Of a DNA stretch of 64,000 bases, positions 4,164 to 58,051 are shown one piece after another. Under the pieces are notes generated by a model. It worked only from the letters and a program-made list of their open reading frames with translations, was not told the origin of the DNA and ran no database searches. The position numbers and the translations under genes are program-made. The stretch is from contig NZ_JADEWZ010000010.1 of assembly GCF_015207425.1 (NCBI RefSeq), positions 1 through 64,000 of the forward strand. Direction: 5' to 3'. Origin of the DNA: Lusitaniella coriacea LEGE 07157. GTDB lineage: Bacteria; Cyanobacteriota; Cyanobacteriia; Cyanobacteriales; Spirulinaceae. How positions within the stretch are numbered: position 1 is the stretch's first letter; the number at the start of each line of letters is the position of its first letter.

Positions 4164-4272
4164 AATTGTGAGTTCTTTTTTGCTCGTGTAGGGTAGGTTA
4201 GGCTGCACGCTCATAGCTGAATGCTTAAATTTATCGTAACCCACCAAAACTAAGGCTTTCCATCACCTTAAA

Positions 4273-4845
4273 ATGGATTCTATATTAACCCTAAATTTAG
4301 ACACCGTTCGCCTGACAGACGAGCAATTCTACAACATCTGTCAAAATAATCGCGAGTTGAAATTCGAGCGCACAGCCCTAGGAGAACTAATTATTATGTC
4401 ACCCGTTGGGGGAGAAAGTGGCAACCGAGAAGCTGACTTAATCATCGATTTGGGAATTTGGAATCGGCAAACCGGACTGGGTTACACCTTTAGTTCCTCC
4501 ACCATATTTAAACTACCCAATGGCGCAGATCGTTCTCCCGATGCCGCCTGGATTCAGCGTCAACGCTGGGAATCCCTCACTCCCGAACAACGGCGCAAAT
4601 TTCCCCCCATCGCCCCGGATTTTGTCATCGAATTAAGGTCTGCAACTGACAGTATAGAAATGTTGCGCGCCAAGATGCAGGAATATTTGGATGCAGGGGT
4701 GTTATTGGGATGGCTGATTAACCCCCAACAGCAGCAAGTCGAAATTTATCGCCCAGAAAAGGTAGTGGAAGTGCGAAATCTGCCCGCCGAATTATCTGGT
4801 GAAACTCTTCTACCCGGATTTCGTTTGAGCTTATCTCAGTATTAA
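4273..4845 (+). CDS. Uma2 family (DUF820) endonuclease-like protein
   Basis: The 190-residue protein has the Uma2/DUF820 fold, a PD-(D/E)XK nuclease-like family greatly expanded in cyanobacteria. Visible hallmarks are RSPDAAWI (about residues 94-101), PDFVIELRS (about 117-125) and KMQEYLDAGVLLGWLI, which supply the aspartate, glutamate and lysine positions of the motif. Target and function are unknown; the family is often scattered as single genes, sometimes near mobile elements. A second, clearly divergent copy lies at 20,655. Confidence 0.85.
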   Translation: MDSILTLNLDTVRLTDEQFYNICQNNRELKFERTALGELIIMSPVGGESGNREADLIIDLGIWNRQTGLGYTFSSSTIFKLPNGADRSPDAAWIQRQRWESLTPEQRRKFPPIAPDFVIELRSATDSIEMLRAKMQEYLDAGVLLGWLINPQQQQVEIYRPEKVVEVRNLPAELSGETLLPGFRLSLSQY

Positions 4846-5149
4846 ACATCTTCAAAATTGCATATTACAGTTCAATAAGCTGCTCGCTTGAGTTTGGGGC
4901 TACTCTCATTGCCATTCTGAGCGCGATCGGTTTGCTCGGTTGGTATGGGGGCAAGTTAAGCGGGAGAGCAACGATCCCTCTACTCAAAATCGTTATGACT
5001 ATGATATAGTTGTAACAGTTCGTAACTATTTAACGGGTACCGCATTGCTACAGGTGTTCGTACTCTTTCTTCAGCAGATGTCGGAGAAATTTTGTTTGCC
5101 TGTAGTAGGACGAAAACCAGTGTAATTGAAGAGTTAAGGAGAATCAATA
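4846..5149. other. Intergenic region upstream of the peroxiredoxin
   Basis: About 304 bases with no convincing gene. A 61-codon frame at 4940-5125 has no family resemblance and no ribosome-binding site. A good Shine-Dalgarno, AAGGAG, lies at about 5135-5140 in front of the peroxiredoxin ATG, so a promoter is expected here, but I could not place a clear -35/-10 pair. Confidence 0.5.
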
Positions 5150-5743
5150 ATGGAAGGATGCCTGCGCGTTGGGCAAGCTGCCCCCGATTTCACAGCGACG
5201 GCTGTTGCAGATCAAGAATTTAAGACTCTGAAACTGTCTGACTATCGCGGCAAATATGTTGTCCTATTTTTCTACCCCTTAGACTTTACCTTTGTCTGCC
5301 CGACGGAAATTACAGCATTTAGCGATCGCGTGGAAGAATTCAGCAAGATCGATACCGAAATCCTCGGCGTTTCCGTTGACAGCGAATTCTCTCACCTCGC
5401 TTGGATTCAAACCGATCGAAAAGAAGGTGGAATAGGCGACATTAATTATCCGTTGGTTTCTGATATCAAAAAAGAAATCAGCAACGCGTACAATGTCCTC
5501 GATCCTGAAGCTGGCGTGGCACTGCGCGGACTGTTCATTGTCGATAAAGAAGGCGTTGTGCAACACGCAACCGTCAACAACCTCTCCTTTGGTCGTAGTG
5601 TAGACGAAACCCTCCGCACGCTCAAAGCCATTCAATACGTTCAATCTCACCCCGATGAGGTCTGTCCTGCGGGTTGGCAAGAAGGGGACAAAACAATGGT
5701 TCCCGATCCCAAGAAGTCTAAAGTTTATTTCTCTGCGGTCTAG
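5150..5743 (+). CDS. 2-Cys peroxiredoxin
   Basis: This thiol peroxidase (197 residues) reduces hydrogen peroxide and alkyl hydroperoxides, with electrons from thioredoxin. The peroxidatic cysteine is in [10 protein letters not shown] (about residue 49) and the resolving cysteine is in VCPAGW (about residue 171). [10 protein letters not shown] and the C-terminal KVYFS correspond to the GGLG and YF motifs that make typical 2-Cys enzymes sensitive to overoxidation. The start at 5150 has an AAGGAG site about 10 bases upstream. A hairpin terminator follows the stop, so the gene is monocistronic. Confidence 0.95.
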
Positions 5744-5786
5744 ACTGGGTATTTGCCCTCGATCGATTTTGAAACGTATTTTTATT

Positions 5787-5829
5787 CTCCCTGAATTCCC
5801 AAAATGGGAAATTTTGGGAGATGTTTTTT
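5787..5829 (+). terminator. Rho-independent terminator of the peroxiredoxin gene
   Basis: Nested inverted repeats CTCCC/GGGAG and TTCCCA/TGGGAA around an AAA loop are followed by a run of six T bases. The hairpin lies 44 bases after the peroxiredoxin stop. Confidence 0.75.
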
Positions 5830-5918
5830 AGATGCGAGATTTTGTTGTTGAGAACGAGGAACGCGATCGCGGGTAATCTGGATAACGGGTAAATGCTTAC
5901 AGGAAACTCAAACCATTT

Positions 5919-7520
5919 GTGTCTGTCGATAAAAAACCGTCTCGTTCGCTAGCTCGAATTGCTGGCATTGTGGCAGCCGCCACGCTCATTAGTAAAGTCT
6001 TTGGCTTGTTCCGAGAACAAGCGATCGCGGCAGCCTTTGGCGTGGGACCCGTCATCGATGCCTACGCCTACGCCTACGTCATTCCCGGCTTCTTGCTCAT
6101 CCTCCTGGGTGGGATTAATGGCCCCTTTCACAGCGCCCTCGTCAGCGTTCTCGCCAAACGGGATAAATCCGAAGCTGCACCCTTAGTGGAAACCATCAGC
6201 ACCCTCGTCAGCTTCCTTCTGTTGGGGGTCACGACGGTTGTGATTATTTTTGCCGGAACCTTTATTGATATCCTCGCGCCAGGATTGGAAACCGCTACTC
6301 GCGCGATCGCGATTCAACAACTGCAAATCATGGCTCCCCTCGCCGTCCTTGCCGGACTGATCGGCATTGGTTTCGGGACGCTCAACGCCTCCGATCGCTA
6401 TTGGCTGCCCAGTATTAGCCCCCTCTTTTCCAGCCTAGCCACTCTTGTGGGTTTGGGCGCACTCATTTTCTACCTAGGCGATCGCGTACAAGCCCCCCAA
6501 TACCTCAAACTCGGCGGAATGGTTCTCGCCGGAACCACCCTCGTCGGGGGGATTTTTCAATGGCTCGCTCAAGTCATTGCCCAATGGCAATCGGGAATGG
6601 GAACCTTGCGCTTGCGCTTTGACTGGCGCATTCCCGGCGTTGCCGACGTGATGAAAGTTATGGCACCCGCAACCCTCTCCTCTGGGATGCTGCACATCAA
6701 CGTCTACACGGACTTGTATTTCGCCTCCGCGATTCAAGGGGCAGCAGCCGCAATGCGGTACGCCAACTTCATCGTTTTAACGCCCTTGGGGATCATCTCC
6801 AATATGCTCCTCGTTCCCCTTCTCCCCGTCTTCTCGCGCCTTGCAGCCCCGGAAAACTGGTCAGACCTCAAAATTCGCATTCGTCAGGGTCTATTCCTCT
6901 CCGCCCTTTCCATGCTGCCCCTAACGGCACTTTTTATGGCGGCGGCAGTTCCCATCGTTCGGATTGTTTACCAACGCTACGCCTTCGATGCCGAAGCGTC
7001 CGCGGTCGTCGCTCCCGTCCTGATGGCGTATGGATTTGGGATGTTTTTCTATTTAGGACGAGATGTTCTCGTGCGCGTCTTCTATGCCTTGGGAGATGGC
7101 GAAACCCCTTTCCGCATTAGCATTGTCAATATCTTCGTCAACGGGATTTTAGACTACTTTCTCATCAAAGCCTTCGCAACGCCGGGACTCGTCATGGCAA
7201 CCGTTGGGGTAAATTTCATCTCAATGATGGTGCTATTGTGGATACTCCATCGCCGTCTCAATGGGTTGCCGTTGTTGGAATGGGGTTTATCGCTATTAGC
7301 GTTAATCGTCGGGACGGTTGTTGCGGGTTTTGCCAGTTGGGGTGCGTGTTGGGGATGGGAACGATTCATCGGAACGGGAAATTTAATTCTGCAACTTTTA
7401 CAATTGGGGTTGGCTTTTTTTATTGCATTGGGAATTTTTATTCTGTTTGCAATTCAACTCAAATTACCAGAGGTGAATATTCTCACATCCCGTATTCGGC
7501 AAAAATTTGCACGACGGTGA
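5919..7520 (+). CDS. murJ: Lipid II flippase MurJ (MviN)
   Basis: The 533-residue MOP-superfamily transporter has about 14 predicted membrane helices and moves the peptidoglycan precursor lipid II across the inner membrane. The N-terminal stretch SLARIAGIVAAATLISKVFG with LFREQAIAAAFG is diagnostic for MurJ. The start is GTG at 5919 (MSVDKKPSRS); no ATG lies earlier in frame with the conserved N-terminus. Family length is about 510-540 residues, so it appears complete. The flanking genes are unrelated. Confidence 0.93.
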   Translation: MSVDKKPSRSLARIAGIVAAATLISKVFGLFREQAIAAAFGVGPVIDAYAYAYVIPGFLLILLGGINGPFHSALVSVLAKRDKSEAAPLVETISTLVSFLLLGVTTVVIIFAGTFIDILAPGLETATRAIAIQQLQIMAPLAVLAGLIGIGFGTLNASDRYWLPSISPLFSSLATLVGLGALIFYLGDRVQAPQYLKLGGMVLAGTTLVGGIFQWLAQVIAQWQSGMGTLRLRFDWRIPGVADVMKVMAPATLSSGMLHINVYTDLYFASAIQGAAAAMRYANFIVLTPLGIISNMLLVPLLPVFSRLAAPENWSDLKIRIRQGLFLSALSMLPLTALFMAAAVPIVRIVYQRYAFDAEASAVVAPVLMAYGFGMFFYLGRDVLVRVFYALGDGETPFRISIVNIFVNGILDYFLIKAFATPGLVMATVGVNFISMMVLLWILHRRLNGLPLLEWGLSLLALIVGTVVAGFASWGACWGWERFIGTGNLILQLLQLGLAFFIALGIFILFAIQLKLPEVNILTSRIRQKFARR

Positions 7521-52570: not shown

Positions 52571-52909
52571 TTTATGTTGGGGATGGGGTAGTGATTGACA
52601 GGATGAGAGTGACGGCTTGATGCCTATGAACTCTAAACTCTGAACTCCAATCGCATCTTAGCTTAAGGTTTCATAGAATTACATTCTGCGTCAGGAGTGT
52701 ATGGGACTCAGGACGAAAAAACGACTTTAAACGATTCAAATTTTAAGTTTTGTAACAAAACCCATAATAACCGTATAACTAACCAGAGTGATACATGAAA
52801 GCGTCCCACGGATACATTTTGTCGCTATTCGGCATTAAACAATAATCTTTATGGGACGCACCTAAGCAAAAAATTTAGTGTCTTAGGCGTTTTCAGAGGT
52901 CTTTCCGGA
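52571..52909 (+). promoter_or_regulatory. Leader of the sigma/CHAT operon with two inverted repeats
   Basis: The 339-base gap contains GCGTCCCA (52801-52808) and its reverse complement TGGGACGC (52852-52859), and just after it CCTAAG/CTTAGG (52861-52866 and 52882-52887). The second hairpin ends 22 bases before the start of the sigma-like gene and 8 bases before the AGAGG ribosome-binding site. Either could be an RNA control element or an operator. An AT-rich stretch at about 52,730-52,790 is a candidate promoter. Confidence 0.45.
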
Positions 52910-53812
52910 ATGGACGAACAATTACAACAAGCAATTGAGGAGGTACAACGATGTTCTCTTGGAAGCGAGGAAAGAGAAAGCGCTTTGAGCGCTCTGGTCA
53001 AGCATATATTACGATCGCGCAAAGTTTTTCGTTTTTGCCAAGGTCAACCCTTGTGGGGAATTTACGAGGAAGTTTACCAGCGTCTTAAAGTCCGTCTAAC
53101 AGAGGAGTTGAACTCGACAATTGATGATTACAATCTCGAAAATCCTTCGGTGCGAGAATGGGCAAGCAATCGGCTGAATATAGTTTATCGTAGCGCGATC
53201 GACCACGCTCTCCTAAAACGCCTTGCAATAGAAGCACAAAACCAAGAACCCAGTACGGAATTACGACAATATGCATTGAGGGAATTGGTAGGAGCAATTC
53301 AAGTTTCTGGCAGACTTTGCCATCCCCATCGCGGTCGATGGAATCCTCAATTTTACGAACTTGTTTATGAAGAAACAGTCAATCAAATATTGATTTATGT
53401 TTGTCAGAAAATTCATCTTTACAATCCCAATCGAGGAGATGGGAAATTCATGAATTGGGTGAACTTTAAACTGGATAAAAAGTTTCTAGATATTGCCCAA
53501 CAATTCCGGAACAGTGAAGATTTACCCAATTTATCCGAAATAGAAAATATTCCGACTCCGGAATATCCTCCTTCCATTGCCAATTGCATTCAACAAGTTA
53601 TCGAACGCGATCCCGATAACTTATTCACAAAAACTCATATTCGAGGCAATCAAAAAGCCACTTTCAAAGCAATCGTACTCGCAAGATTGTTGGGTAAAAG
53701 CTGGGAAGAAATCTCACAAGAATTGGGAGAAATTCCTGTTGCCACACTGAGTGGTTTCTTTTATCGATGTTGCAAGAAATTCTCTTATTTATTTGAACAA
53801 TGTCGGTATTAA
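52910..53812 (+). CDS. Sigma-70-like protein (sigma region 2 and 4-type domains)
   Basis: The 300-residue protein resembles ECF-type sigma factors. Region 2-like: residues about 157-199, containing LYNPNRGDGKFMNWVNFKLD and DIAQQF. Region 4-like helix-turn-helix: residues about 245-295, containing FKAIVLARLLGKSWEEISQE. The N-terminal 140 residues are an unassigned helical extension. A sigma-like gene upstream of DUF1822, CHAT/CHASE2 and DUF928 genes is a recurring arrangement in cyanobacteria as far as I can recall. No anti-sigma gene is recognised. Activity on a promoter is unproven. Confidence 0.75.
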   Translation: MDEQLQQAIEEVQRCSLGSEERESALSALVKHILRSRKVFRFCQGQPLWGIYEEVYQRLKVRLTEELNSTIDDYNLENPSVREWASNRLNIVYRSAIDHALLKRLAIEAQNQEPSTELRQYALRELVGAIQVSGRLCHPHRGRWNPQFYELVYEETVNQILIYVCQKIHLYNPNRGDGKFMNWVNFKLDKKFLDIAQQFRNSEDLPNLSEIENIPTPEYPPSIANCIQQVIERDPDNLFTKTHIRGNQKATFKAIVLARLLGKSWEEISQELGEIPVATLSGFFYRCCKKFSYLFEQCRY

Positions 53813-53851
53813 GAATGGGCAAGACACTAGAAAACCTAAATTTGCCTTCCC

Positions 53852-54961
53852 ATGCCAAAGTTTATCATCACAGAAAATTGTCAAACAATGAACGGTACGC
53901 TCAACTCCAAAAACCCAGTCAAACTCATGAACAATATTTCTTGTAACGTCTCGCTCTCTCTAGAGGCTCATGCTCGAGCCAAGCGGTTTCAACGCTATCA
54001 CACCAATCCGCAAAAAGCCAAGCAGGTTTATCTCAATACTTTGGCTGTCTATGCAGTCGATAATTATCTGCAATGCCAAGGATTTGAGACAGATTGGGTG
54101 GCAAGCGACAGCACAAATCCTGTCTTTCAAGCTTTGATGGATATTGCTGATTTGAAGGTCAAAGATTGTGGGAAAATTGAATGCAGACCTGTTCTTCCTA
54201 ACTCGGATAAACTTTATGTTCCCCCTGAAGTTTGGGCAGAAATTGGAGATGAGCGACGAGGGTATGTTGCAGTTCAGTTCACAGAATCTTTACGAGAAGC
54301 AACGCTGTTAGGATTTGTTGACAAGGTGGAAGCAGAAGAACTTTCCCTGAGTGAATTACAATCCATCGAACAGCTTTCCAAATCCTTAAACCAATATAGA
54401 GAACTCGCTCCAGAATCAACAACCGTCAACTTAGGAAAATGGTTTCAAGAGGTGTTTGCAAAGGGGTGGCAATCTGTTAACTCTCTATTTGAACAAGAAA
54501 GACAAGAATTGGCGTTTCGAGACAGGCGATTAAATTCTGCCTTACGAGGTAACTTACAATTACTTAGAGAGAACGCTGTTTTGAAAAAAGATTTAAAGTC
54601 AAGCGAACCAATACCCGTTCGAGGAATAAAATTACTCGATGTTGGGATGGAATTAGAACATGAATCAGTAGCAATGTTAGTAGGTATTGCGCAAGAAAAA
54701 GAAGAAAAAATGGGAGTCCGCGTCAGACTTTTGCCAACGGAGGAGCGATCTTATTTACCACAAGATATTAAACTTTCACTGCTTTCTTCTTCTAACGATA
54801 TTCTCCAGGAATCCCAGGCGCGCGATCGCGATAATATGATTCAACTGAAACGATTCACCTGTCCGATGGGAGAAAGCTTTAGCGTTCGAGTCTCTTTGGG
54901 TGAATGTACTTTAACGGAAAATTTCGCGATCGATCCGATTTCTTTTGAAAAGAATGAGTAA
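53852..54961 (+). CDS. DUF1822 family protein
   Basis: A 369-residue cytoplasmic protein with the N-terminal DUF1822 block: LEAHARAKRFQRYHTNPQKA and VYLNTLAVYAVDNYLQCQGF (residues about 40-75), then VPPEVWAEIGDERRGYVAVQ. No catalytic motif or membrane helix is visible. An in-frame ATG at 53888 might be the true start, as usual family members begin nearer to the conserved block. It lies 39 bases after the sigma-like gene and overlaps the CHAT gene by 8 bases, so translation is probably coupled. Function unknown; it is a candidate protease substrate or sigma-binding partner. Confidence 0.8.
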   Translation: MPKFIITENCQTMNGTLNSKNPVKLMNNISCNVSLSLEAHARAKRFQRYHTNPQKAKQVYLNTLAVYAVDNYLQCQGFETDWVASDSTNPVFQALMDIADLKVKDCGKIECRPVLPNSDKLYVPPEVWAEIGDERRGYVAVQFTESLREATLLGFVDKVEAEELSLSELQSIEQLSKSLNQYRELAPESTTVNLGKWFQEVFAKGWQSVNSLFEQERQELAFRDRRLNSALRGNLQLLRENAVLKKDLKSSEPIPVRGIKLLDVGMELEHESVAMLVGIAQEKEEKMGVRVRLLPTEERSYLPQDIKLSLLSSSNDILQESQARDRDNMIQLKRFTCPMGESFSVRVSLGECTLTENFAIDPISFEKNE

Positions 54962-57275
54962 GCTAGTAATCTTGAATTTTGGTAACGGGACGTTGGAGGA
55001 AGGTTGTCCTGCGGTAACGGTTCGCGTAGAGGCGGAGGATCGCACGCCGTTGGCACTGCTTAACGGTAATTTACCCCCTGCATCGGAACTTTTAGAAATT
55101 TACCATCGTTGGCAATTACTTTACCTCCTACTTTACGATCGATTTCGAGGCATTGAAATTGACAATGGAGATATTACAAATGTTTCCTATGGCGATTTTG
55201 AGGAAATTTCCCAAGAGTTGAAGAGACAGATTAATCACTGGCTTGATTCTGAAGAGTTTCAGCACGTTAAGCTTCAACTGTTTTTCTCATTAGCGGCAAA
55301 TGATGAAGTTCGGGTGATTATCCAAACCGAAGATGAATTTTTAAGAAAGCTTCCCTGGCATCAGTGGGACTTTTTCGGAAATTATCACCGTTCTGAAGTT
55401 GTAGTTAGCAATCTCTCGATTTTTCAACCTCAGTACCCCATTAGAAAAGCGAAGGTAAAAATCTTAGCGATTTTGGGCGACTCTACAGGAATTAATGTTG
55501 AAGAAGATCGCAAATTATTAGCAGCATTACCCAATGCAGAGGTCGAATTTTTGGTCAAACCCAAACGCAAGCAGTTAAACGATCGCTTGTGGGAGGAAGG
55601 ATGGGATATTCTATTTTTCGCCGGACATAGCGTCACTTCCGAGGATGGGGAAACGGGACATATTTATATCAATCGCCAGGATCGTTTAAGTATTGCTGAT
55701 TTAGAATATGCACTAGGAAAGGCAATTTATCGGGGATTGCAACTGGCGATTTTTAACTCCTGCGACGGGTTAGGATTAGCACAAGAATTAGCAGATTTAC
55801 GGATTCCTCAGATGGTTGCAATGCGCGAATCCGTTCCCGATCGCGTGGCGCAAGAATTCTTAAAATACTTTTTGAATGCCTTTTCTGCGGGTCAATCTTT
55901 CTATTTATCAGTTAGAGACGCGAGAGAACAACTGCAAGGACTGGAGAACGAGTTACCGGGTGCGAGTTGGTTACCCGTGATTTGCCAAAATCATACCCAA
56001 ATTGCACCCATTTGGAACGACTTCCTGTTAGATCGTCCACAATGGACTTGGTGGAAGCGTTTCAGCCTTGTGTGTGGGGTTGGCGCGATCGCGTCTGGGT
56101 TAATTATGGGAACGCGCTTCCTTGGAGTCATGCAACCCGTCGAACTCTCCGCCTACGACCATTTAATGCGCCTGCGTCCCGCCGAACAAATCGACAATCG
56201 CCTGTTGGTGGTAGAAGTAACCGAAGAGGATGTAAAAAAGTACGGCTATCCCCTTGAAGATAGAACCCTTGCTAAACTCCTACAAAACCTCAACAACTAT
56301 AAACCCCGTGCGATTGGCGTGGATATGCACCGCTATCGACAACGAGGAGAAGGACGCGAGGATTTTATTTCTCAGTTTGACAAGCATTCCAATCTCTTTC
56401 TCGTTTGCGCTTACGGAATTGAGGATCGCAACTATGCACCGCCTCCGGAATTTTCCCCTAACCAATTGAAAAATCAAGTGGGGTTTAGCGATCTTCCTAT
56501 TGACGATAATCCCAATGAAAATATTTTTCCCGTTCGCCGTCAACTCCTCTCTCACGATTCTCAATTACACAATTCTCCGACACCTTGTCAAACTCCCTTT
56601 AGTTTTAGCTTTCACCTCGCTTTTCGATTTTTGTATGAGGACGCGATCGATCCGCCAACTCCTAATGAAAGGGGTCATTGGCAATTGGGGAAAGTGGCGT
56701 TCAAATCCTTAAAAAATCGCACGGGAGGCTATCAAAACTTAGGAGAACACAATCAAATTCTCCTCAATTACCGTTCTATCCCGAAATCCGGTCAAATTTC
56801 GCGAAAAATCACGCTACGACGAGTTTTAGAAGAAGAAATCGATCGGCAATTGATAGAAGGAAAAGCCATTCTGATTGGAACGACTGCTGCTGTGGCGAAC
56901 GACAGTCTTAATACTCCTTATGGTTCTATGTCCGGCGTGTGGGTTCACGCTCATATGGTCAGTCAAATGCTGAGTGCAGCGATGGAAGATCGAACCCTCA
57001 TTTGGACGCTACCACAATGGGGAGATGCGCTGTTTGTTCTAGCTTGGTCTGTAGCGGGTGGATTTTTGGCTTGGCGATCGCGCACACTTCTCTTTCTCCT
57101 ACTCAAACTGAGCCTTGCCAGCATAATCCTACACCAACTCTGTCTCGTGTTCCTGATCTACGGCGGCTGGATGCCATTGATTCCTTCGGGAATGGCACTT
57201 TGGGGAACTGCAATCGCTGTTAAGGGTGGGTTTATTGCAAAACGAAAACTCGAACTAAGAGGTCAATTCCTATGA
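54954..57275 (+). CDS. CHAT protease-CHASE2 sensor membrane protein
   Basis: The 773-residue protein starts at ATG 54954, which overlaps the DUF1822 stop (ATGAGTAA). The N-terminal CHAT domain (about 100-345) has the caspase-like dyad: His225 in FFAGHSVTS and Cys270 in FNSCDGLG. A membrane helix (about 372-395) leads to a periplasmic CHASE2 domain (about 405-665) with YDHLMRLRPAEQID and TPYGSMSGVWVHAH, then three C-terminal helices. This places a protease inside and a sensor outside the membrane. The DUF928 gene starts in its stop codon. Protease activity is inferred. Confidence 0.85.
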   Translation: MSKLVILNFGNGTLEEGCPAVTVRVEAEDRTPLALLNGNLPPASELLEIYHRWQLLYLLLYDRFRGIEIDNGDITNVSYGDFEEISQELKRQINHWLDSEEFQHVKLQLFFSLAANDEVRVIIQTEDEFLRKLPWHQWDFFGNYHRSEVVVSNLSIFQPQYPIRKAKVKILAILGDSTGINVEEDRKLLAALPNAEVEFLVKPKRKQLNDRLWEEGWDILFFAGHSVTSEDGETGHIYINRQDRLSIADLEYALGKAIYRGLQLAIFNSCDGLGLAQELADLRIPQMVAMRESVPDRVAQEFLKYFLNAFSAGQSFYLSVRDAREQLQGLENELPGASWLPVICQNHTQIAPIWNDFLLDRPQWTWWKRFSLVCGVGAIASGLIMGTRFLGVMQPVELSAYDHLMRLRPAEQIDNRLLVVEVTEEDVKKYGYPLEDRTLAKLLQNLNNYKPRAIGVDMHRYRQRGEGREDFISQFDKHSNLFLVCAYGIEDRNYAPPPEFSPNQLKNQVGFSDLPIDDNPNENIFPVRRQLLSHDSQLHNSPTPCQTPFSFSFHLAFRFLYEDAIDPPTPNERGHWQLGKVAFKSLKNRTGGYQNLGEHNQILLNYRSIPKSGQISRKITLRRVLEEEIDRQLIEGKAILIGTTAAVANDSLNTPYGSMSGVWVHAHMVSQMLSAAMEDRTLIWTLPQWGDALFVLAWSVAGGFLAWRSRTLLFLLLKLSLASIILHQLCLVFLIYGGWMPLIPSGMALWGTAIAVKGGFIAKRKLELRGQFL

Positions 57276-58051
57276 AACTTACTCGAATGTATTGGATTGT
57301 CGCAATTTCGCTTCTACAAATTACCACGAGTTTTAATCGCGCGATCGCGCAAAACCCCTCAACCCCCTCCTCAACTCCACCCGTTCCCGGTCGCCAAACC
57401 ACACCAGGAGGCGGACAGCAATCCGCAAATCCCCCCACACCGTCACCAACTCTACCGGATAATCGTACCCGACCTGGCGGTTCCCTCAGTTCCCCCGATT
57501 CCACTTGTCCCCCCACAAAACAACCATTAACCGCACTCATTCCACCTCAAAATCCCGTCATCACCACTAACGCGACTCTAAGAATTTCATTCTACGTTCC
57601 CTATGGCTCGGATACCGTGCAAAAAGGCGAATTTTCCCTCGTTACCCAGGATGAAAAAACGCGCATCTATAAAACTCAAATTACACTTTCCCCAACACCG
57701 GGAATCATCAGTATCGACGTGCCATCAGAACCCGAATACGCCCTTACAGAGGGACAATACTACCATTGGTACTTCAAACTCTATTGCCAAGGAAACGACA
57801 GTTCTAGCAACGATTTAGCGGTCAATGGATGGGTGCAGCGAGCGCCTTTGACTCCCGAACGGGAACGGCAAGTTGCTGAGTTTTCTCCGGAGGTTTGGTA
57901 CGATTCTGTGGCAAATCTGCGCGATCTTCTGCAAGATTCTCCCGAAGATGAAACATTACAGAACAGTTGGGAAACTTTATTGCGTTCGATTAATGCAGAA
58001 GAATTAATCTCAGAACCATTTGTGGATTCTGCCACAATTCAACCCAATTAG
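57272..58051 (+). CDS. Secreted DUF928 family protein
   Basis: A 259-residue protein with a signal peptide (MKLTRMYWIVAISLLQITTS, cleavage near AIAQ at residue 26), a Pro/Thr/Gly-rich linker (about 27-85) and the DUF928 domain (about 90-240): LRISFYVPYGSDT, EGQYYHWYFKLYC and VNGWVQRAPLT. The ATGA overlap with the CHAT/CHASE2 gene couples translation. It is likely periplasmic and so could meet the CHASE2 sensor domain. Function unknown. The stop overlaps by 4 bases the stop of the opposite-strand regulator. Confidence 0.82.
   Translation: MKLTRMYWIVAISLLQITTSFNRAIAQNPSTPSSTPPVPGRQTTPGGGQQSANPPTPSPTLPDNRTRPGGSLSSPDSTCPPTKQPLTALIPPQNPVITTNATLRISFYVPYGSDTVQKGEFSLVTQDEKTRIYKTQITLSPTPGIISIDVPSEPEYALTEGQYYHWYFKLYCQGNDSSSNDLAVNGWVQRAPLTPERERQVAEFSPEVWYDSVANLRDLLQDSPEDETLQNSWETLLRSINAEELISEPFVDSATIQPN

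Follow-up and report, generated by a model that had tools for sequence, protein, structure and literature searches.

Kaur et al. (2021; PMC8195603) described modules in which a constant EACC2-caspase unit, an alpha+beta N-terminal domain followed by a caspase-type domain, is joined to C-termini that vary, CHASE2 and STAND among them. Most TRADD-N-independent cases were reported with a gene for an extracytoplasmic function (ECF) sigma factor and one for DUF1822, called a TPR protein there, and activation as an autopeptidase with a transcriptional step was proposed. A four-gene operon at positions 52910-58051 of a 64,000-nucleotide stretch of Lusitaniella coriacea LEGE 07157 (contig NZ_JADEWZ010000010.1, positions 1 to 64,000; hereafter the window) is built like these modules: an N-terminal domain and a caspase-type CHAT domain are followed by a C-terminal sensor of the variable kind, and genes for DUF1822 and for what is most likely an ECF sigma factor lie alongside. 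We read this operon as an ECF sigma/anti-sigma pair under a membrane receptor-protease, in which DUF1822 would hold the sigma factor and CHASE2-controlled CHAT would cut DUF1822, and assign this reading a probability of about 0.5. The set looks like a way to turn an envelope signal into gene expression by cutting an inhibitor. The four genes and their products are as follows.

52910-53812, plus strand: most likely an ECF-type sigma factor, 300 amino acids (P0001; open reading frame, AlphaFold model and fold comparison, Sigma70_r4_2 at E 0.017, below cut-off); sigma2-like at residues ~97-203, sigma4-like at ~223-299, and a second, divergent sigma2-like copy at 1-91
53852-54961, plus strand: DUF1822 protein and probable anti-sigma factor, 369 amino acids (P0002; Pfam DUF1822, 5e-67, and model); alpha/beta N-domain at residues ~30-220, low-confidence linker at ~221-255, immunoglobulin-like (Ig-like) beta-sandwich at ~255-362
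54945 (TTG) or 54954 (ATG) to 57275, plus strand: CHAT-CHASE2 membrane protease-receptor, 776 or 773 amino acids (P0003; Pfam); in order, conserved N-terminal domain, CHAT (His225, Cys270), hydrophobic segment 372-390, CHASE2, hydrophobic C-terminal region 717-735
57272-58051, plus strand: DUF928 protein, 259 amino acids (Pfam DUF928, 1e-39)

The ATG at 54954, from which His225 and Cys270 are numbered, is the more likely start of P0003. With this start the genes overlap by 8 and 4 bases, and the four same-strand genes with the overlaps named in the original prediction are borne out by the open reading frame coordinates. The same applies to its intact CHAT dyad joined to CHASE2: Pfam recognises CHAT (1.5e-12) and CHASE2 (1.5e-54) in a single polypeptide, a hydropathy scan places segment 372-390 between them, and all 80 aligned sequences retain both His225 and Cys270, a count favoured by the search, one scan pattern of which lies just before His225. 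From this segment and the known arrangement of CHASE2 we infer that CHAT lies in the cytoplasm, the compartment of the sigma factor and DUF1822, and that CHASE2 is exposed on the outer side of the membrane. In P0003 the CHAT domain with its dyad follows a conserved N-terminal region whose likeness to EACC2 is one of architecture. The CHAT core is constant across related loci and the C-terminal sensor varies (mostly CHASE2, elsewhere nSTAND1-WD40, pentapeptide or TPR repeats).

The architecture of ECF sigma factor, DUF1822, EACC2-caspase and CHASE2 or STAND is therefore not new, and the general idea of a protease acting towards an ECF sigma factor, which the original prediction had put forward, was likewise in print in 2021 (PMC8195603). 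This lessens the novelty of that idea, and the conserved gene order adds to its support. Our account departs from that of Kaur et al. in that DUF1822 is modelled as alpha/beta plus Ig-like, its N-domain is read as anti-sigma, and a DUF928 protein, which does not figure in their description of the modules, is present. As far as the open-licence literature goes, the following are new: the fold modelled for DUF1822, the membrane-anchored proteins related to it that are encoded next to sigma genes, the occurrence of two sigma families in one slot and a duplicated sigma2 domain. No report naming DUF1822 an anti-sigma factor was found in the full texts of that literature. What that literature offers on function is, for DUF1822, the label 'TPR protein' and, for DUF928, a cited acid-stress response.

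Several other described systems share parts of this arrangement. In one Nostoc, a cluster of CHASE2, DUF928 and WD40 genes, reported in 2017 and found in one of seven cyanobacteria, was read as serving signal transduction, and an acid-stress response of a Synechocystis DUF928 protein is cited there (PMC5587647). As in the window, CHASE2 and DUF928 genes stand side by side; unlike in the window, the cluster as described there comes without sigma factor, DUF1822 or CHAT. In the type III-E CRISPR system CASP, Csx29 cuts Csx30, an inhibitor of the CASP-sigma factor (PMC10028731). CHAT protease, ECF sigma factor and a third protein as sigma inhibitor, the last predicted in our case, are common to both, but the protease there is the RNA-guided Csx29 whereas here it is a membrane CHASE2 receptor. 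HetF cuts PatU3, an inhibitor limiting the transcription regulator HetZ (reviewed in PMC12288457), and by analogy a cyanobacterial protease would again act on the inhibitor of a transcription regulator if P0003 cleaves as proposed. However, that account does not describe HetZ as a sigma factor, and P0003 lies outside the HetF equivalog family: on the CHAT part of P0003 the NCBIfam model NF045509 gives 24.2 bits (E 9.5e-6), where the cut-off is 1200. RseA is an example of a membrane anti-sigma factor that is released by DegS (PMC10028731). An envelope signal, a protease, an anti-sigma factor and an ECF sigma factor would likewise be linked here, with the difference that the sensor is on the protease and the presumed anti-sigma factor is soluble. 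Given the Csx29/Csx30 and HetF/PatU3 precedents, the cutting of an inhibitor by CHAT is plausible.

A scan of one genome per species with the N-terminal and CHAT region of P0003 yielded 508 relatives; the best-scoring 79 loci, an uneven sample, were kept. Many of these end near a contig edge, and 60 have enough flank. DUF1822 was encoded upstream in 70 of the best 79 loci and a sigma factor of the window's type in 12, and CHASE2 was present in 67. Among the 60 best loci with enough flank, the corresponding numbers were 54, 9 and 51, and DUF928 was found in 28. At most other DUF1822-CHAT loci the sigma slot is filled by genes of a second, larger family of ~390-580 amino acids. With loci of the L. 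coriacea genome added, a sigma gene lay directly upstream at 67 of 73 DUF1822-CHAT loci, 15 of the window-type and 52 of the larger family. The original prediction had named a survey of gene order in other cyanobacteria as a check, and the order sigma-DUF1822-CHAT is indeed widespread. In quick trees of these 67 loci, with the six loci lacking a sigma gene excluded and long branches flagged, one change (support 100) accounts for the split of DUF1822 by sigma family, and two are required for CHAT.

We also searched 116 genomes of the phylum with the same sigma, DUF1822 and EACC2-CHAT profiles; all counts from this search are among the matches listed. For the window-type sigma factor, 7 partial or duplicate-domain and 19 out-of-class matches were dropped from 84; out-of-class matches were left out for the second sigma family, together with one in-class match (G011:C1:2094352), and for DUF1822. 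DUF1822 followed on the same strand within 700 bp downstream in 47 of the 58 window-type sigma matches kept, and was found within 700 bp upstream in none of the 58; the adjacency of sigma factor and DUF1822 is therefore not due to chance. For the second family, DUF1822 was directly downstream in 27 of 32 matches (27 of 33 with the match left out). Thus, 74 of the 90 sigma genes kept adjoin DUF1822, as an anti-sigma factor is encoded beside its sigma factor. The 122 DUF1822 matches comprised 75 with a sigma gene directly upstream and 64 with EACC2-CHAT directly downstream; 37 had both and 20 neither. Seen from the protease, DUF1822 was directly upstream in 63 of 99 EACC2-CHAT matches, preceded by a sigma gene in 36 of these, and the full triad occurred in 26 of the 39 genomes having EACC2-CHAT. 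Based on these neighbour counts we concluded that the tight pair is sigma factor and DUF1822, which the protease frequently joins as a third member.

The first gene product was identified as a sigma factor by its AlphaFold model and fold comparison, Pfam being sub-threshold: none of the six scanned members of the window-type family reached a Pfam sigma cut-off. The sigma-like call had at first leaned on that motif below cut-off; the structure prediction agrees with regions 2 and 4 of ECF sigma factors, and both the sigma2 and the sigma4 fold are present in the model. The model, built from 11 sequences, has a mean pLDDT of 75.7 and a pTM of 0.41, with low confidence over the first 95 residues and good confidence at residues ~97-203 and 223-299. 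The best Foldseek match was sigma H (5zx2_F, E 0.04), followed by sigmaE and then by unrelated helical proteins. After realignment of the candidates, E. coli sigmaE (1or7_A) came first with a Z of 9.9 spanning both domains, and SigC (2o7g_A) also reached Z 9.9, with a root-mean-square deviation of 2.4 over 86 residues. Helical models easily reach Z near 10, and more weight is therefore given to the make-up of the best 50 rows, nearly all of which belong to the sigma-70 family. Consistently, the family profile compared with PDB sequences found the ECF factor SigK (E 0.0065). Taken together, the model indicates that the product of 52910-53812 is most likely an ECF-type sigma factor.

A family profile built without P0001 matches this protein twice, at residues 1-91 (41 bits) and 101-291 (143 bits), and by this sequence criterion the sigma2-like domain is tandemly duplicated, the additional copy corresponding to 52910-53182 of the window. 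Double matches of this kind were also seen in G112:C114 and G062:C1:243722. In the second sigma family, four of the six scanned members have a Pfam sigma-70 region above cut-off, one of them with region 2 as well, and the L. coriacea member has region 4 over cut-off; two members, L112 and L113, had no Pfam sigma-70 region over cut-off. The profile of this family found SigF and FliA among PDB sequences.

The AlphaFold model of P0002 (mean pLDDT 84.1, pTM 0.67) consists of an alpha/beta domain, a linker and an Ig-like beta-sandwich, and on this model we reject the published label of DUF1822 as a TPR protein. Fold matches of the beta-sandwich were weak (best Foldseek E 0.002; best Z 7.0, none at or above 8). 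The N-domain was compared as part of the whole model, and novelty of its fold is not claimed. An identity with Csx30 was likewise not adopted: the DUF1822 profile matched no PDB chain at E <= 1 in a library whose Csx30 chains were unchecked, and Csx30 did not appear among the fold-comparison rows listed for P0002, from Foldseek or realignment; a distant relation is possible. Many anti-sigma factors are soluble, and a hydropathy scan of P0002 revealed no hydrophobic segment.

Membrane anti-sigma factors have a typical layout, with a cytoplasmic domain, a membrane span, a periplasmic end and an adjacent sigma gene. Such a layout was observed for DUF1822-like proteins of small-genome members of the phylum, Cyanobacteriota outside the class that were grouped as family f23 and are probably the non-photosynthetic Melainabacteria/Vampirovibrionia. 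In this family, PF08852 matches the N-terminus of long proteins; at least 42 genomes have a DUF1822 match, 28 are listed with coordinates, and 25 loci were fetched. In 23 of the 25 (L221-L224, L241-L257, L259 and L260), a protein of 816-1294 amino acids combines the DUF1822-like N-domain, a long linker, acidic in those read, one hydrophobic segment and a conserved C-terminus, and a sigma gene of one family (184-198 amino acids) begins 13-107 bp downstream. The other two have no adjacent sigma gene; in L225 the reading frame runs to the contig end, and L258 is a short reading frame of 304 amino acids. For the one pair scanned with Pfam, the neighbour matched Sigma70_r4 (1.9e-9) and the C-terminus TonB_2 (4.5e-7). 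By hhalign, the N-domain of these proteins aligned with that of DUF1822 over 144 columns (probability 93.6%, E 2e-7), and the C-terminal beta-sandwich of DUF1822 gave no match to them. Because the related N-domain stands in proteins with this layout, the N-domain of DUF1822 is read as an anti-sigma domain, a sequence-based assignment that lends independent support to the earlier guess of DUF1822 as the holding partner. As a side observation, the genes upstream in L221 resemble, read by eye, flagellar or type III export genes.

These relatives bear on two other explanations. DUF1822 could be a positive partner of the sigma factor, as a co-activator or promoter-specificity subunit; adjacency alone cannot separate an activator from an inhibitor, and the pair does exist without an adjacent protease. 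However, membrane-anchored DUF1822-like proteins with a TonB-like end are what is expected of an anti-sigma factor, and we regard a positive role as quite improbable. In the reading of Kaur et al., the published proposal for this architecture (PMC8195603), the EACC2-caspase is autoproteolytically activated within a conflict or cell-death system, and sigma factor and DUF1822 form a downstream or parallel response in which DUF1822 is not the substrate. In its favour, some of the C-terminal modules are of the STAND-WD40 kind found in immune receptors. The position of DUF1822 between sigma factor and protease, its tracking of the sigma family, the anti-sigma layout of its N-domain in the small-genome relatives and the misfit of the TPR label with the model all speak against this reading, and we regard it as unlikely.

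In the sigma/anti-sigma reading that we prefer, DUF1822 probably binds the sigma factor through its alpha/beta N-domain, keeping it off RNA polymerase. The odds appear even that CHASE2 responds to a signal in the periplasm by activating CHAT, the cytoplasmic domain of the same polypeptide. CHAT might in turn cut DUF1822, the simplest site being the linker that joins the two DUF1822 domains; to this step we give somewhat less than an even chance. Either the cut itself or subsequent degradation would release the sigma factor, whose regulon may extend to surface or secreted proteins. More tentatively still, the N-domain of DUF1822 could be a previously undescribed anti-sigma domain spread through the Cyanobacteriota, anchored with a TonB-like end in the small-genome relatives, whereas in photosynthetic cyanobacteria it would have become soluble and come to be controlled by the caspase-like receptor CHAT-CHASE2, which cuts it.

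The most conserved residue of the linker is Arg225, present in 47 of 48 aligned DUF1822 sequences, often within A-F-x-F-R. In a wider alignment it was found in 34 of 36 further rows, copies without adjacent CHAT included, although the linker part of that alignment contains many gaps, and the Arg may have been aligned there artificially. It is also kept in two genomes, G048 and G072, which carry the sigma-DUF1822 pair and have no EACC2-CHAT at E <= 1e-25, and for this reason Arg225 is not claimed as a CHAT-specific cleavage motif.

This conservation of Arg225 in genomes without EACC2-CHAT is one of several observations that weigh against our reading. Sigma-DUF1822 pairs lack an adjacent EACC2-CHAT in 38 of the 122 DUF1822 matches, 36 of the 99 EACC2-CHAT matches have no DUF1822 directly upstream, and such pairs together with G048 and G072 show that this CHAT is not obligatory. 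Foldseek with the P0001 model gave no match at E <= 0.001, the tool itself notes that Z values near 10 are indecisive when the model is helical, and a comparison of the two sigma family profiles was not significant (probability 0.7%, E 0.086). An hmmscan of one whole 1083-amino-acid small-genome relative did not list DUF1822 at E <= 0.1, perhaps owing to its linker; the same protein had scored 45 bits for DUF1822, over the Pfam cut-off, in the genome profile search. The search bias in the dyad count belongs here too, as does the statement of the authors of the type III-E work that it is unclear how the Csx30 cut frees the sigma factor (PMC10028731). Both the binding of the sigma factor by DUF1822 and its cleavage by CHAT are, finally, predictions. 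The frequency of pairs without adjacent CHAT, and a linker Arg that is not specific to CHAT-linked copies, would suit an anti-sigma factor released without cleavage, in that activated CHAT-CHASE2 binds or relocates DUF1822 or the protease has another substrate. Since the catalytic dyad is retained throughout the aligned sequences, proteolysis probably matters, and related CHAT proteases are reported to cut inhibitors; release without cleavage thus has only a small share of our expectation.

If the cleavage reading is true, control of sigma factors by caspase-like proteases would be widespread in cyanobacteria, type III-E CRISPR being a special case of it, and the operon would represent a one-step bacterial pathway from receptor-caspase to transcription independent of CRISPR. 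The L. coriacea genome has 42 CHAT matches, so once substrate and output are defined for one class, the others would become testable as well. The anti-sigma reading turns an open question into a directly testable one.

The fourth gene product is a DUF928 family member, as had been predicted; for its predicted secretion there is a signal peptide read by eye at the N-terminus, and a hydropathy scan (19 residues, threshold 1.5) found no segment. DUF928 lies within 1.5 kb of CHAT in only 33 of the best 79 loci (28 of 60 when those with enough flank are counted) and is therefore regarded as an accessory of the system. An involvement in signalling, perhaps as a partner of CHASE2 outside the membrane, seems doubtful.

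The L. coriacea genome contains further versions of the operon. A second full copy in the same order is located at C37:21670-26702. On C2, sigma factor, DUF1822 and CHAT are followed by nSTAND1-WD40, the sigma factor being recognised by the family profile and not by Pfam. C12 carries DUF1822-CHAT-CHASE2-DUF928-DUF928 without an adjacent sigma gene, and C37:4184 a sigma-DUF1822 pair without CHAT. A larger-family sigma factor of 407 amino acids without DUF1822 (L233, G000:C16, 8795-10018, minus strand), with a gene for a two-partner secretion (TPS) protein close by (4192-7350), is perhaps the displaced partner of the C12 operon on another contig. In L068, L069 and L070 (G000:C3 and C1), genes for a CHAT protein of 879-914 amino acids, DUF928 and a CHASE2 protein occur close together, in L068 with one small intervening reading frame, as a split arrangement of the operon's domains.

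Eleven window-type sigma genes have no adjacent DUF1822, and the neighbourhoods of eight were inspected. In L226, L228 and L235, TPR-CHAT or TPS genes intervene and DUF1822 is encoded a few kb further downstream; L231 has TPS and TPR-CHAT only; and none of these genes was present in the stretch fetched around the sigma gene in L227, L229, L230 and L232. A TPR-CHAT gene follows the sigma gene in L226, L228, L231 and L235, with a TPS exoprotein gene also in L226 and L231. DUF1822 and CHAT-CHASE2 genes come after TPR-CHAT in L226, L228 and L235 and not in L231.

Upstream of the sigma gene of the window, an inverted repeat (GCGTCCCA ... TGGGACGC) at 52801-52859 is a possible operator. Promoter-like sites (7, against a mean of 9.8 in shuffled sequence) and terminator-like sites (10, against 7.0) were within the shuffled range and uninformative. 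TPS genes of the filamentous-haemagglutinin type occurred in 27 of the best 79 loci, compared with ~6-7 of 79 expected from 28 TPS matches over cut-off in the 5.86 Mb of the L. coriacea genome, a density that is this genome's alone; as a pointer to the regulon this enrichment is suggestive only. Extra TPR-CHAT genes were found in 26 of the 79. Single long reading frames at G000:C4:116197-119229 and C2:27047-31414 combine a TPS secretion domain with a CHAT domain and apparently encode secreted CHAT proteins.

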